From positions 1 through 47,488 of the forward strand of contig JAIUMA010000022.1 in assembly GCA_022565795.1 (NCBI GenBank): DNA of 47,488 nt, given 5' to 3'. Shown here piece by piece: positions 11,028 to 28,781 of the stretch. Every line of letters begins with the position of its first letter. The stretch's first letter is position 1. The notes beneath the pieces were generated by a model that did no database searches, had not been told where the DNA came from, and worked only from the letters and a program-made list of their open reading frames with translations. The translations under genes were made by a program, and so were the position numbers. The DNA is from Balneolia bacterium (GTDB taxonomy: Bacteria > Bacteroidota > Rhodothermia > Balneolales > Cyclonatronaceae).

Positions 11028-12422
11028 TTAGCTAAAATCTCCCCGGTCGTACTTTTTGAAGTATTCTTTGGATGCTGCAACTACTTTAGGCGCAAGAAGT
11101 ATGGTAGAAATCATCGTTGGGATGGCCATCATGGCAAACGCGCTGTCCAGAAGATTGATAACCGCTCCAATGGTTGCAACAGAGCCGAAAACAATGCTTA
11201 AAACGTAGAAGTAGTTAAAGTACTTTTTCTTATCGGCACCGGCCAGGAAGCTGATACACTTGGCGCCGTAATACGAATAGGTAAACATGGTTGTGAGCGC
11301 AAAAACCGTAACGCAGACGATAAGAATCGGCACGCCTAAAACAGGAATACCGGAAGAGAAGGCCATGGCCGTGAGCGTAACGCCATCTGTATCGGTGTTC
11401 ATCCATACGCCGGTAACCAGAATGGCCAGGGCGGTCATGGTGCAGACAAGAATAGTATCAATAGCGGGCTCGAGCATTGCAACAAGGCCTTCACGCACCG
11501 GTTCGTTGGTTTTAGCCGCGCCGTGTGCCATAGACTCGGTTCCGATACCGGCCTCATTGGAAAAGGCCGCCCGGCGGACCCCTATAATAATAACGGCACC
11601 GACTGCTCCGCCCAGCATGGATTCCGAGTTCACATATTCACCTCTGAAGGCATCCGTAACGATGAGCGACAGATAGTAAGGAACAACATCAATATGGGTG
11701 ATGAGGATATAGACGACGGAAACCACGTAAAGCACAACCATAAACGGAACAAGCGTAGCCGCTACGTTTCCGATTCTTTTGATGCCCCCAAAAATCACCA
11801 GTGCTACAATTGCGGTAAGAATAAGACCGGTGATGAGATCCGAGCCAAAATGAGCTTCCGGACTTACAGCAGCCATAGGAATAAGCACGCTGTCGCGGAT
11901 AATTTGCGTAAGCTGATTAGCCTGAAAAAGCGGAAGACACCCAAGAAGGCCACAAAAGCTGAAAAACCAAGCCAAAGGATGCCATTTCTTATCAAGACCC
12001 TCGCGAATAACGTACATCGGGCCGCCCTGAATCTTGCCTTCGCTGTCGCGGCCCCTATACATTATTGATAGCGTACAGGTGAAGAATTTCGTAGCCATAC
12101 CAACCAGCGCGCTCACCCACATCCAGAAAATGGCGCCCGGGCCACCCATGGTAATCGCAACGGCCACGCCGCCAATATTACCCATTCCAACCGTAGCCGC
12201 AAGCGCCGCGCTTAAAGCCTGAAAGTGGTTTATATCCCCTTCTGCATCGGGATCGTCGTACTTCCCTGTAAGCACGCCTACCGCATGACCTATGTATCTG
12301 TAGGGAGAAAAGCGGGAAAGGATTACAAAGAAAATGCCGCCGCCGACCAGCAGGGCAACAAGAGGCGGGCCCCACGCAAAGTCAGCAAACTGACCGGTGA
12401 GAGCTTCAAGGCGTTCAATCAT
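11028..12422 (-). CDS. AGCS-family sodium:alanine (amino acid) symporter
   Basis: 464 aa polytopic inner-membrane carrier, the usual length. It shows the family signatures GMGNIGGVAVAITMGGPGA followed by IFWMWVSALVGM, the QGGPMYV segment, and RRAAFSNEAGIGTESMAHGA. The family imports alanine, glycine or related small amino acids with Na+. About eleven hydrophobic segments can be picked out. It is monocistronic, diverging from the small barrel gene across a 240-bp gap that contains a 20-bp palindrome. Exact substrate is not deducible. Confidence 0.95.
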   Translation of the reverse strand: MIERLEALTGQFADFAWGPPLVALLVGGGIFFVILSRFSPYRYIGHAVGVLTGKYDDPDAEGDINHFQALSAALAATVGMGNIGGVAVAITMGGPGAIFWMWVSALVGMATKFFTCTLSIMYRGRDSEGKIQGGPMYVIREGLDKKWHPLAWFFSFCGLLGCLPLFQANQLTQIIRDSVLIPMAAVSPEAHFGSDLITGLILTAIVALVIFGGIKRIGNVAATLVPFMVVLYVVSVVYILITHIDVVPYYLSLIVTDAFRGEYVNSESMLGGAVGAVIIIGVRRAAFSNEAGIGTESMAHGAAKTNEPVREGLVAMLEPAIDTILVCTMTALAILVTGVWMNTDTDGVTLTAMAFSSGIPVLGVPILIVCVTVFALTTMFTYSYYGAKCISFLAGADKKKYFNYFYVLSIVFGSVATIGAVINLLDSAFAMMAIPTMISTILLAPKVVAASKEYFKKYDRGDFS

Positions 12423-20649: not shown

Positions 20650-22401
20650 TTAAGCGTTTTGCGCTTCCGGGTTTTTCCCATAGAATTTGAGGATAAAGTA
20701 GAGAATCACAAAGCCGGTAATAAGTCCGAATACAGGATGAATCCAGTCGAAAGCGGCAGGGATTTCACCAACAACAAGGGCAACGCCAGCAACAACAAGC
20801 GCATAAGGCAGCTGTGTGCGAACGTGATCAATCAGGTCGCAGGCGGACGACATCGAGCTGAGTACGGTGGTATCCGAAATCGGTGAGCAGTGGTCGCCGA
20901 ATACCGCACCGGCCATTACCGAGCTGATGGAGCCCAAAAGAATGCCGTAGTTTTCACCACCGGCAAAACCCACGCCGGCGCCCATCACCACCGCCAGCGG
21001 AATCACTACCGGAAACAGAATCGCCATAGTACCCCATGAGGTTCCTGTGGAGAAGGCAGTAAGAGCGGCGATAAAAAAGACAAGACCCGGCAGAAGGAAT
21101 ATCGGCAGCGTATCCTGAAGCATGCCCGCCAGAAATGGTCCGGTACCAACGGCCTGCGTAACCTCACCCAAGCCCCACGCCAGCACCAGAATTATGACCG
21201 CCATAAGCATCGACTGCATCCCGCCAACGAGCGATTCAAGCGCCTGCCCAACGGAGAGCACCTTTTGGTACACAACCATTGCGATAGCCACGGCACAACC
21301 CGCAAATGACGCCCAGAGCAGGGCCGCGAACGGATCGGCATCACCGATTATATTGGTGATGCTTCGCTCGCCCGGCTCGAGTCCGCTCACGCCGGTCGAG
21401 TAAAGTCCGTAAAGCGCCACCACAATTACGGTGAGCACCGGCACGGCTGCATTGTACCAGCGCTGCGGCTTATCGGGCAGCGGCTGAAGCGTTTCCATGT
21501 TGGTATCGGCAGCCGGCATGGATCCGGGACGCAGAACACCTCCGCCGGAAGCCGCGCGCTGCTCGGCTTCGAGCATGGGCCCGAAATCGCGGCGCATCAC
21601 AATAACCATCAGCACAAAGCCGAGGGCCAGAATGGGATAGAATAGATAGGGAATGGAGTCCAGAAAAATGAGGAAGGCGTTATCGGCTCCGGCCTGTAAT
21701 TGCGCGGCAAGAGCGACGTCTTCGGTCTGACCCGCCAGCGTGGAGAGTGAATTCGATATCTGCGTAATCTCAAATCCGATCCAGGTGGTAATCACGGCGC
21801 TAACGGCCAGTGGAGCGGCGGTGGAATCCACGATATAGGCCAGCTTTTCACGCGAAATGTTGAGGCGGTCGGTCATGGGGCGCAGGGCGTTACCGCGGAT
21901 GAGCGTATTAGCGTAGTCATCAAAAAAGATAAACAGAGCCGAAAGCCAGGTATACATCTGTCCCTGAGTTCGGGTTTTAGCAAACTTCTGGAGCTGGGCC
22001 ACCACGCCCTTTGTTCCGCCACCGCGTGACATCACCCCAACCATACCGCCAAGCAGCAGACTGAAAATGATTATGGAAACGTGGTAGGAATCCGACATGG
22101 CCTCAACCAGAAAGTTGAATGAGGCCGCCGTGCCTGCAAACGGATTGTAGCCCATCAGAAAGAAAGCCCCAATCCAAACGCCCGCAAAAAGCGACAAAAT
22201 TACTTCTCTGGTGATAAGCGCCAAAGCGATTGCAACCAGAGGCGGCAGCAGGCTGATCCATGTGCCAAAAACGGGCGATACTTCCCCGTTATCCGCCGTT
22301 TCGGCAAAGCTGAAGCCAAATAGCCCCGTAGCTCCGAAGATGGTGAGCAGCACTAAAGAAAGCGCCGCGATGATCGTGAAATTTTTTACGCCACCGTTCA
22401 T
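20650..22401 (-). CDS. NhaC-family Na+/H+ antiporter
   Basis: 583 aa polytopic membrane protein. Family motifs visible are FFDDYANTLIRGNALRPMTD, DSTAAPLAVSAVITTWIGFE and FGDHCSPISDTTVLSSM, the last carrying the acidic residue pair characteristic of the NhaC superfamily. Such carriers exchange Na+ for H+, or in some members malate or lactate. Transcribed alone, upstream of the protease pair. With AGCS and MscS nearby it fits a salt-exposed lifestyle, which is an inference. Confidence 0.93.
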   Translation of the reverse strand: MNGGVKNFTIIAALSLVLLTIFGATGLFGFSFAETADNGEVSPVFGTWISLLPPLVAIALALITREVILSLFAGVWIGAFFLMGYNPFAGTAASFNFLVEAMSDSYHVSIIIFSLLLGGMVGVMSRGGGTKGVVAQLQKFAKTRTQGQMYTWLSALFIFFDDYANTLIRGNALRPMTDRLNISREKLAYIVDSTAAPLAVSAVITTWIGFEITQISNSLSTLAGQTEDVALAAQLQAGADNAFLIFLDSIPYLFYPILALGFVLMVIVMRRDFGPMLEAEQRAASGGGVLRPGSMPAADTNMETLQPLPDKPQRWYNAAVPVLTVIVVALYGLYSTGVSGLEPGERSITNIIGDADPFAALLWASFAGCAVAIAMVVYQKVLSVGQALESLVGGMQSMLMAVIILVLAWGLGEVTQAVGTGPFLAGMLQDTLPIFLLPGLVFFIAALTAFSTGTSWGTMAILFPVVIPLAVVMGAGVGFAGGENYGILLGSISSVMAGAVFGDHCSPISDTTVLSSMSSACDLIDHVRTQLPYALVVAGVALVVGEIPAAFDWIHPVFGLITGFVILYFILKFYGKNPEAQNA

Positions 22402-24115: not shown

Positions 24116-24484
24116 TTATGAAACTGGTTCTGGTTCATGAATCAAAACTTCAGCCGGGATACCAAGTTTTCGATACATGATTTTAATTTGGCGAAGTGAA
24201 AGCGATCGTTTGCCGGATAAAATTTCGCTGGCCCTGGACTTCGATCCCAATAATTTTGCCAAATCTTTTTGCTCCATACCAAGCTGTTCCATTCTAAACT
24301 TTATCGCTTCAACCGGTGTAGGTGCTTCTATTGGGAAGTGCTTTTTTTCATATTCATCTACCAATATGCCTAAAATTTCCAATTCATCACCTTCTGCCGT
24401 ACCGGGCCTGGCATCAAAAATTTCTTCAATGCGCTCCAATGCTTTTTGATGATCCTGTTCGGTGTGTATGGGTTGAATTCGCAT
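24116..24484 (-). CDS. higA: HigA-type antitoxin (HTH transcriptional regulator)
   Basis: 122 aa. The C-terminal half holds an Xre-type helix-turn-helix at about 68-92 (LGMEQKDLAKLLGSKSRASEI) followed by LSLRQIKIMYRKLGIPAEVL, typical of HigA antitoxins of the HigA/VapA group. The N-terminal half is acidic and helical, as expected for toxin neutralisation. It is the second gene of the pair, 15 bp after the toxin stop. HigA proteins usually repress their own promoter; a candidate operator is at 24809-24825. Confidence 0.92.
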   Translation of the reverse strand: MRIQPIHTEQDHQKALERIEEIFDARPGTAEGDELEILGILVDEYEKKHFPIEAPTPVEAIKFRMEQLGMEQKDLAKLLGSKSRASEILSGKRSLSLRQIKIMYRKLGIPAEVLIHEPEPVS

Positions 24485-24499
24485 AATTATGGTTCCACT

Positions 24500-24793
24500 T
24501 TAAATTTTCGTTGCATCAATTTTGTCGTATTCAGCATGAGTACCTACAAAACGGATGAACACCTGTCTGTAGTCATAGTTAATTTTAGCTACTAACCGGT
24601 AGTTATTACCCTTGATATTAAAAACCACGCGATTGTCAGGAAGAATACTGGCATGTGGATATTTGTTCTTAATATCAACAGGTGATTCCCAGGAGGAATT
24701 TTCAGCTTCAGAAAACCACGCCTTCAAAGCATCTTTGCTGTCTGAATGATTGTTCCAAAATTCACGCAACGTTTTCCGGGCAAATACTCGCAT
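24500..24793 (-). CDS. higB: HigB-type mRNA interferase toxin
   Basis: 97 aa, normal for the HigB_toxin family. It starts MRVFARKTLREFW and ends with the characteristic VFIRFVGTHAEYDKIDATKI; the middle has ALKAWFSEAENSSWESPVDIKNKYPHAS, also typical. HigB toxins have a RelE-like fold and cleave mRNA on the ribosome. It precedes its antitoxin, the usual order for higBA. The module lies inside a repeat-rich segment and is likely a mobile accessory unit; whether it is active is unknown. Confidence 0.93.
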   Translation of the reverse strand: MRVFARKTLREFWNNHSDSKDALKAWFSEAENSSWESPVDIKNKYPHASILPDNRVVFNIKGNNYRLVAKINYDYRQVFIRFVGTHAEYDKIDATKI

Positions 24794-24952: not shown

Positions 24953-25088
24953 TTTGAATCAGGATTCGGTGGATTTAAGGATTAAAACGATTCCTTGCTT
25001 AATACGCTCAATAGAGCTGATTACCCTATATCCCAACACCTCCCGGACCATCCGTGAAATCCATAAATCCTGTACATCCTGATTCAAA
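24953..25088. repeat. 136-bp element with 31-bp imperfect terminal inverted repeats
   Basis: The arms at 24953-24983 and 25058-25088 are complementary at 25 of 31 positions; the outer 13 (TTTGAATCAGGAT) are perfect. The arms are of the AATCC/ATCCTGATTC type often seen between genes in Bacteroidota. No coding frame is visible inside and no clear flanking target duplication. It is MITE-like or a long hairpin. Confidence 0.65.
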
Positions 25089-25485: not shown

Positions 25486-26634
25486 ATGAACAAATACGTA
25501 CTAATTGGAATCGTGCTTATCGCCGCTGTTGGCGCATTTTTGTGGTGGAACCAGTCCGGCTCGGCCGATCAGGGTTTGCCGCCCCTAACCACCGTCGAGG
25601 TCGATAAGGGTGATGTTTCCCGGCGCGTGGTCGCTTTTGGCGCCATTCAGCCGGTGCAGAAGGTGACCGTCGGCAGCCAGGTTTCGGGCATAATTGAAGA
25701 CATTTTTGTGGATTTCAACAGCATGGTTTCCCGCGGCGACGTCATTGCACGGATTGAATCATCCACCTTCGAGGCCGAGGTGAGCTCGGCTCAGGCGGAG
25801 CTGGAATCGGCTGAAGCTGGCCTGGAGCTTGCCAGGCTGCAGTGGGAGCGCACCAATGAGCTGCGCGAGCGACAGTTTGTTTCTCCGTCTGATGTGGATC
25901 AGGCCTCCTCTACCCTGCGTCAGGCTGAGGCCCAGGTTCGCGTGCGGCGTCATGCCCTGGAGCGGGCGCAGCGCGAGCTCGACCGATGCACCATCAAAGC
26001 GCCGACCGACGGCATGATTATCTCCCGCGATGTGGACGTAGGTCAGACCGTAGCCGCCAGCCTCAACGCACCCGAGCTTTTCCAGATCGCCACCGACCTG
26101 CGGCAGATGCACATTTACGCCAACGTATCGGAAGCGGATATCGGGCAGGTTCAGTAAGGTCAGCGCGTAATTTTTCGGGTTGATGCCTATCGTGACCGTG
26201 ATTTCACGGGTGAAGTCATCCAGGTTCGCAACGCCCCCCTCATAGAGGATAACGTGGTGCATTACGAGACGCTGATTGCGGTTGATAACGAGTAGATGCT
26301 CCTCAAACCGGGAATGACAACGGAAGTGAGCGTAATTACGGCCGAGCAGCATGATGTAATCCGTGTCCGCAACACCGCCCTTCGCGCCCGTCTGCCCGAC
26401 GGATTGCGTCCGCCCACGCCGGACCATATCAGTGAAGGCGAGCCGCGGGTGTACGTGGTGCGTGATGGTAAGCTGGAAGTTATAGCCGTAGAAACCGGCC
26501 TCAGCGACGGGGTAAACACTGAAATCATAAGCGGACTTCAGGAAGGCGACGTACTAGCCGTTGGCCTTACCCTAACCACCGGCGGAGATGGCGAACGAAG
26601 AAGTCTCTTCGGCGGCCAACAAGCTCAATACTAA
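25486..26634 (+). pseudogene. MacA/HlyD-type ABC-exporter adaptor with two in-frame stops
   Basis: One continuous frame of about 382 codons interrupted by TAA at 26155 and TAG at 26293 without any frame change. Segment one (223 aa) has an N-terminal membrane anchor (VLIGIVLIAAVGAFLWW), a biotinyl/lipoyl-like half (VGSQVSGIIEDIFVDFNSMV), a coiled-coil hairpin (about 95-165) and the returning lipoyl half TIKAPTDGMIISR. Segment two (45 codons) continues with GQRVIFRVDAYRDRDF. Segment three restarts at an ATG immediately after the TAG (26296) with LLKPGMTTEVSV and the C-terminal domain. In homologs both stop positions commonly hold Glu, so single G-to-T changes could explain both. Downstream ATPase and permease appear intact. 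Pseudogene is the simplest reading; readthrough, reinitiation and sequence error are alternatives. Confidence 0.85.
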
Positions 26635-26721
26635 TGGTGAGGACGCAGAGGCGCGCCGATTATACCGCGGAGTAACGCAAATTGAGTATGATGATTATGA
26701 ATCTGGAGGTTCACGGTTTTA

Positions 26722-26756
26722 ATTCACAATTCACCATTCCCAATTCACAATTTACG
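26722..26756 (+). repeat. Phased heptamer tract ATTCACM, site 2
   Basis: Five in-phase 7-bp units: ATTCACA, ATTCACC, ATTCCCA, ATTCACA, ATTTACG. It lies in the 177-bp gap between the interrupted adaptor gene and the ATPase gene, so it splits what would normally be a compact operon. Confidence 0.78.
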
Positions 26757-26811
26757 AAAGGTTTTCAACTACCGCTATATTTTCAACCATCGTTATAGAT
26801 GACTTAAAGTT

Positions 26812-27564
26812 ATGATCTCTTTAAAGGATATCACCAAATCTTATCGATCCGGTTCGCTCTCGGTGGACGCTTTGCGGGGCATCACCATGGAAATTGAGGA
26901 AGGTGAGTTTACGACAATTATGGGTTCGAGCGGGTCGGGGAAGTCTACGCTGATGAATATTCTGGGCTGTCTCGACAAGCCTACGGAAGGATCATATCTG
27001 CTGAATGGTGAGGATGTCTCCAAGTTCAAAAAAGAAAAGTTATCTCAGGTACGTAACCGGATGATTGGCTTTGTGTTTCAGAATTTTCATCTTTTGCCGC
27101 GAACCACAGCTCTGGAAAACGTGGAGCTGCCGCTGCTGTATACCGAGGAAAAGCTGAGCTGGAAGGAGATCCACAAGCGGGCAGGCGAAGCCCTCGACAT
27201 TGTGGGGCTTGGCGACCGTAAGAAGCACTCGCCCAACGAGCTTTCGGGCGGACAAATGCAGCGGGTGGCCATTGCCCGGGCGCTGGTTACGCGTCCGTCG
27301 GTGCTGCTGGCCGACGAGCCCACTGGAAACCTCGACAGCCGCACCAGCCTGGAGATTATGGACATTTTTCAGCGGCTCAACCGGGAAGGCCTCACCATCC
27401 TGATGGTCTCCCACGAGCCGGATATCGCCCGCTTCTCGAAACGCATCACCATTCTGCGGGACGGGCTCATCATATCCGACAAGCCCAATACGCCCCGATC
27501 CTCCGCCGACGCCATTGCGCAGTGGAAGGATGAAGCCGAAATTATGAGTGAGGAAACCGCCTGA
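26812..27564 (+). CDS. MacB/LolD-type ABC transporter ATP-binding protein
   Basis: 250 aa. Walker [10 protein letters not shown] at about 38-46, Q-loop [13 protein letters not shown] at 88-99, ABC signature LSGGQMQR at 144-151, Walker B VLLADEP at 164-170 and an H-loop MVSHEP. The subfamily (LolD/MacB/FtsE) powers mechanotransmission-type exporters rather than classic transport through the permease. The stop overlaps the permease start (TGATG-type overlap at 27562-27566), so the two subunits are translationally coupled. Here ATPase and permease are separate chains, unlike fused E. coli MacB. Confidence 0.96.
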
Positions 27565-28781
27565 TGAAACTTTCTGCCGTACCTTATGTGGCCCTCAAAG
27601 CCCTTCGACGAAACCGAATGCGTACCCTGCTCACCGCTCTTGGCATCATTATAGGCGTGGCGGCTGTAATTACCATGGTTGGTCTGGGTCAGGGCGCCGG
27701 TGCCGAAGTGCGCGAGCAGGTCAACCGGCTGGGACAAAACGTGGTGCTCGTCTTTCCGGGTGCGCGACAGCTTGGGGGCGTTAGCATTGGCGGGGGCAGC
27801 GCAAACACCCTCACCGTAGATGACGCCCGTGCCCTACGCGAAGAAATTCCCGAAGTAATTGCCGCCAGCCCCGAAGTTCGCTCACAGCGCGTGGTCGTGT
27901 ATGGCAACCAGAACTGGTTCACCCGAATTTATGGTCAGTCGGCCGACTACCTGCAGATTCGTCAGTGGGGGATCGAAAGCGGCCGCATGTTTGATGAAGG
28001 TGATGTGGAAAATGCCGCCCTCGTAGCCGTTGTGGGTCAGACTATTGTGGAAGAACTTTTTGAAGGCGCCGACCCTATTGGCGAAACCGTGCGCGTGCGC
28101 GGCCTTCCGCTCGAATTAATCGGCATACTCGAGCCTAAAGGTATGTCGCTCATGGGTTCGGTGCAGGATGATATCGTGCTTATGCCCTACACCACCGGCT
28201 TCCAGCGCATCTCGGGCCGTTCCCACGCCATGGTGATAAATGTGCAGGTTTTTGATGAGCAGTCGATGGAAATTGCGCAGCTTAAAATAACGGACCTGCT
28301 TCGTGAGCGTCACGGACTTGCGCCCTACCAGGAAAATGATTTCACCGTGCAGACGCAAGAAGAAGTGGCCGCCGCTGCAACCGAAACCTCCCGCATCATG
28401 ACCTGGCTATTGGCCTCCATTGCGGGCGTCTCGCTCTTTGTGGGCGGGATTGGCATCATGAACGTGATGCTGGTGAGCGTAACCGAACGCACCCGCGAAA
28501 TCGGCCTCCGACTTGCAGTGGGCGCCCGTGGTCCTGACGTGCTGCTTCAGTTTCTGATTGAAAGCGTAGTGCTCTGCCTGCTCGGCGGTATTGGCGGCAT
28601 TCTGCTCGGCCTGGCCGCCACCGAAATCATCGCCAGCTACGCCGGCTGGCCGGCCTTATTCTCCACCGAAGCCATGATCATAGTCGTAAGCGTCTCCGCC
28701 GCCGTTGGCGTCTTCTTCGGGTTTTACCCTGCGTGGAAAGCATCGAGACTGGATCCTATTGAGGCACTGAGGCGCGAGTAA
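27564..28781 (+). CDS. MacB-like ABC transporter permease
   Basis: 405 aa. N-terminal transmembrane helix (RMRTLLTALGIIIGVAAVI, about 13-32), a long extracytoplasmic MacB core domain (about 50-270), and three C-terminal helices within the FtsX domain, with the GGIGIMNVMLVSVTERTREIG signature (about 293-314). The family couples ATP hydrolysis to expulsion of macrolides, lipopeptides, haem or signalling peptides through a periplasmic adaptor and an outer-membrane channel. The adaptor gene upstream is interrupted, and no TolC-like gene is in the window, so the substrate and activity of this exporter remain uncertain. Confidence 0.95.
   Translation: MKLSAVPYVALKALRRNRMRTLLTALGIIIGVAAVITMVGLGQGAGAEVREQVNRLGQNVVLVFPGARQLGGVSIGGGSANTLTVDDARALREEIPEVIAASPEVRSQRVVVYGNQNWFTRIYGQSADYLQIRQWGIESGRMFDEGDVENAALVAVVGQTIVEELFEGADPIGETVRVRGLPLELIGILEPKGMSLMGSVQDDIVLMPYTTGFQRISGRSHAMVINVQVFDEQSMEIAQLKITDLLRERHGLAPYQENDFTVQTQEEVAAAATETSRIMTWLLASIAGVSLFVGGIGIMNVMLVSVTERTREIGLRLAVGARGPDVLLQFLIESVVLCLLGGIGGILLGLAATEIIASYAGWPALFSTEAMIIVVSVSAAVGVFFGFYPAWKASRLDPIEALRRE

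Follow-up and report, generated by a model that had tools for sequence, protein, structure and literature searches.

An adaptor gene with two in-frame stops

The window, the whole stretch of 47,488 nucleotides analysed here, corresponds to contig C22 of a draft genome (3.59 Mb, 145 contigs) that was estimated to be 100% complete and 0.16% contaminated. It carries a three-gene MacAB-like exporter consisting of a periplasmic adaptor, an ABC ATPase and a permease (Table 1). The 382 codons of the adaptor gene were translated in a single frame, with internal stops solely at codons 224 and 270 and then the terminal TAA. Orthologues of equal length aligned with it end to end and without an indel, including that of the closest relative, G003, at 83% identity over codons 1-382. 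Translation and alignment agree with the first-pass annotation, which had placed TAA and TAG in one frame with no shift and had described ATPase and permease as intact; both are open and full length. A chance open frame was rejected, as both flanks of both stops scored as coding and aligned with the 41 orthologous reads.

Table 1. Features at the exporter locus (positions in the window)
Feature	Position	Strand	Remarks
Gene adjoining the operon in same-genus genomes	11028..12422		see text
NhaC-like antiporter gene	20650..22401		see text
HigB-like toxin (PF09907) and adjoining HTH protein	24116..24793	-	upstream of the exporter
Inverted-repeat element	24953..25088		31-nt arms, 81% complementary
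MacA/RND_mfp-type periplasmic adaptor gene, two internal stops	25486..26634	+	TIGR01730 above cut-off, codons 1-223
TAA, codon 224	26155..26157	+	Glu 25, Asp 16 in 41 orthologous reads; GAG in closest relative
45 conserved codons between the stops, beta-barrel region	26158..26292	+	homology with MacA; pN 0.048 against closest relative
TAG, codon 270	26293..26295	+	Glu 32, Asp 6, Gln 1, Ala 1, Asn 1 in orthologous reads
112-codon 3' part, end of beta-barrel and membrane-proximal region	26296..26634	+	begins with ATG; without anchor or export signal
Adaptor-ATPase gap	26635..26811		177 bp, AATTCAC-type repeats
ABC ATPase, intact	26812..27564	+	PF00005; nearest NCBIfam equivalogs MacB and LolD, neither reaching its cut-off
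MacB-like permease, intact	27564..28781	+	PF12704 and PF02687; 91-93% identical to full-length same-genus orthologues

The first-pass annotation had also proposed two single G-to-T changes. This was only partly right: codon 224 is GAA, GAG, GAC or GAT in all relatives, but codon 270 is CAA (Gln) in the closest relative. Since G003 carries GAG and CAA at the two positions, a G-to-T change is compatible with the first stop, and either a G-to-T or a C-to-T change with the second.

Codons 1-223 of the adaptor reached 131.9 bits against TIGR01730 (RND_mfp; cut-off 94.9) and 53.6 bits against PF16576 (HlyD_D23; cut-off 30), and the 3' part still gave a sub-threshold match to the C-terminal portion of RND_mfp. 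The intact G003 orthologue scored 185.5 bits with TIGR01730 (1.2e-54). With the MacA equivalog NF008606, an intact orthologue scored 167 bits, below the cut-off of 342. The window adaptor chain ends at codon 223, so that no single chain contains the full beta-barrel together with the membrane-proximal domain. The permease was identified as MacB-type by matches to PF12704 (MacB_PCD, 166 bits) and PF02687 (FtsX, 68.8 bits). The score for the MacB equivalog NF007826 was 278.1 bits, below its cut-off of 966, and ATPase and permease are separate genes, not fused.

The gap between adaptor and ATPase is long in the window compared with about 80 bp in G003 and about 60 bp in G001. A gene of the wax ester/triacylglycerol synthase family (TIGR02946) lies between adaptor and ATPase in G005 (L134, 8359-10320), where a small ORF without an NCBIfam family adjoins it, and at the matching place in G004 (L135). 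Its position inside the operon may hint at a lipid-related exporter substrate. About ten partial copies of the inverted-repeat element upstream of the adaptor, with 70-91% identity, occur elsewhere in the genome. The NhaC-like antiporter gene or the gene at 11028..12422 adjoins the operon in several same-genus genomes, and from this partial synteny the operon looks inherited within the genus.

Orthologues and selection on the adaptor gene

The orthologue set comprised 41 reads, 36 of them distinct beside the window, with 59-83% identity to the adaptor. Many of the orthologous exporter loci belong to Balneolaceae or Balneolales MAGs, and the bacterium carrying the window is probably of this group as well. 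Neither window stop was present in any of these reads, and a shared or ancestral stop was rejected on this count (0/41). As in pseudogenes, the lesions are private to the lineage and the orthologues are intact, here in nearly all relatives.

Between the window adaptor and its relatives, pS was 0.67-0.83, and synonymous sites were saturated or nearly so. With this saturation dN/dS by segment was unusable, and pN and counts of conserved columns were used. Against G003, pN was about 0.10 gene-wide. By segment it was 0.113 upstream of the TAA, 0.048 over the codons enclosed by the two stops and 0.107 downstream of the TAG, with no increase past either stop. Columns at which at most one of the other sequences deviated were taken as near-invariant. 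At the 123 columns of this kind, the window adaptor had two private changes next to each other, D91E and P92S, and the same-genus relatives had 0-3. As a test for relaxed selection on the rest of the gene, this count revealed no acceleration, so that relaxation is either too recent or absent. Given the few private changes and the saturated synonymous sites against every relative, the stops appear recent, and we infer from the alignments that the gene was under constraint until very recently. The proposal of recent decay made in the first-pass annotation is thus supported: the frame is conserved over its full length, near-invariant positions have rarely changed and the orthologues are intact.

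Under neutral decay, about 6-8 missense changes at near-invariant columns are expected per nonsense change. For two nonsense changes and so small a number of missense ones, P was about 0.06-0.10 counting both private missense changes and 0.01-0.02 counting neither. The window adaptor is accordingly somewhat stop-rich for neutral decay, a mild signal under which assembly error or conserved function keeps some plausibility.

The operon was also incomplete or damaged in relatives. In the same-genus genome G002 (93% complete), no adaptor or permease orthologue was found. In the permease of G004, of the same genus (L135, C169), a +1 shift at a CCCC run breaks the frame near codon 171. In G020 (L138, C145), from another family of the order, the adaptor has a TAG at codon 336, which is Ser in most relatives, and the permease has a TGA at codon 57, which is Gly in the window permease. 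G020 provides another example of this operon damaged by nonsense codons only. The remaining loci that were checked were unbroken over their covered parts. As the neighbour genomes are also drafts, some of their lesions could be assembly errors. Absence of or damage to the operon in several related genomes suggests that it is a dispensable accessory pump in Balneolaceae-like bacteria.

Probable loss of function and competing explanations

The adaptor was, with a probability of roughly 0.8, recently inactivated by two nonsense substitutions, which would be present in the organism and not merely in the assembly. Translation would halt after 223 residues and leave an anchored fragment keeping the lipoyl/hairpin part. 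By homology with MacA, this fragment would lack the membrane-proximal domain and the greater part of the beta-barrel. In MacAB, the membrane-proximal domain of MacA contacts the periplasmic domain of MacB (PMC5985334); stimulation of MacB ATPase activity, for which MacA is critical, was mapped to this region (PMC4446572). By analogy, it is reasonable to expect that an ATPase/permease pair is non-functional without its adaptor, and the pump is probably non-functional in this strain. ATPase and permease would have had too little time yet for decay. With the membrane-proximal domain predicted to be lost and no support for readthrough or reinitiation, loss of function is the simplest reading.

One or both stops might instead be consensus errors of the draft assembly, with an intact gene in the organism. 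Consistent with this improbable explanation, few missense changes accompany the two stops and isolated single-base lesions were found in the drafts G004 and G020 and once more in the genome of the window, at C8:4844. However, internal stops were rare in this genome, which makes two independent errors in one gene improbable: none occurred in 39 ABC ATPase matches and one in 46 HATPase matches, namely the single in-frame TGA at C8:4844, which lies in a histidine kinase HATPase domain. No indel errors were seen in the window operon. A strict hexamer scan over 400 kb of the genome found no further clean nonsense; its sensitivity was limited, as C8:4844 escaped it and only one window stop of the two was caught. 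A lax scan returned mostly antisense-looking frames, and no genome-wide nonsense rate is claimed. Genome-wide stop reassignment was rejected, since other adaptors, MacB-type permeases and ABC ATPases were free of internal stops.

It is unlikely that only the adaptor is being lost and that ATPase and permease are still useful, either alone or with another adaptor of the genome. Both partners are intact and strongly conserved, but this is expected anyway given the recency of the stops. A search of the genome for a second adaptor gene, which the first-pass annotation had recommended, yielded six more distant adaptors and no near-identical copy or close paralogue. An intact second copy was rejected, as the best other adaptor was 33% identical. 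The six genes could supply a replacement, yet none exceeds this identity and the closest, on C11, is directly followed by two permease genes of its own. In reported work MacB ATPase activity depends critically on MacA (PMC4446572), which also argues against this reading.

The first-pass annotation had further offered that the protein is made by readthrough or reinitiation. Reading through of the stops, or synthesis of cooperating fragments, is very unlikely. The frame and the residues beyond the first stop are conserved, but recency explains this equally well, and the stops were kept in no relative. An ATG directly follows the TAG, but the Met at 26296 aligns with an ordinary Met of many orthologues and was therefore not acquired as a special start for reinitiation. 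Reinitiation there would leave out codons 225-269, and the resulting 112 residues would have neither an anchor nor an export signal. Two different stop codons are involved, the RNA around and downstream of them was not unusually structured (z -1.1 to 0.2) and no suppressor anticodon was present among about 15 tRNAs recovered in an incomplete survey. Neither a conserved stop nor a stimulatory signal, the marks of programmed readthrough, was found. A literature search on readthrough of bacterial pseudogenes gave only eukaryotic work among the matches listed. Efficient readthrough of both stops in this lineage, yielding full-length adaptor at a low, regulated level, is more improbable still.

Comparison with known systems

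The locus most likely represents a recently inactivated adaptor gene in an exporter of known type; the interruption is real in this sequence and ordinary in kind. As a single case of small weight, it points to a MacAB-like exporter that is probably silent in the genome of the window. The absence of or damage to the operon in several related genomes adds a modest wider warning that a working pump should not be annotated from ATPase and permease matches alone. The adaptor gene resembles bacterial pseudogenes made by single nonsense substitutions in that its frame is conserved, its premature stops are private and its orthologues are intact, and differs from them in having two stops without other obvious damage.

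Among characterised exporters, MacA-MacB-TolC of E. coli and Aggregatibacter is similar in that the adaptor matched the MacA structures 5nik, 3fpp and 4dk0 and the permease matched MacB (5gko, 5nik), all by sequence. In contrast to that system, ATPase and permease are separate genes in the window and the adaptor carries two stops; the exporter also remained below all NCBIfam MacA and MacB equivalog cut-offs. YknXYZ of Bacillus and Spr0693-0695 of pneumococcus likewise have one gene each for adaptor, ATPase and MacB-type permease, and the window permease matched YknZ (5f9q) and 5xu1. Unlike these systems, the window-type exporter occurs in Gram-negative-type Balneolaceae and others, and its adaptor is broken in the window. 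Because the host is of the Gram-negative type, this kind of exporter presumably docks to an outer membrane channel.
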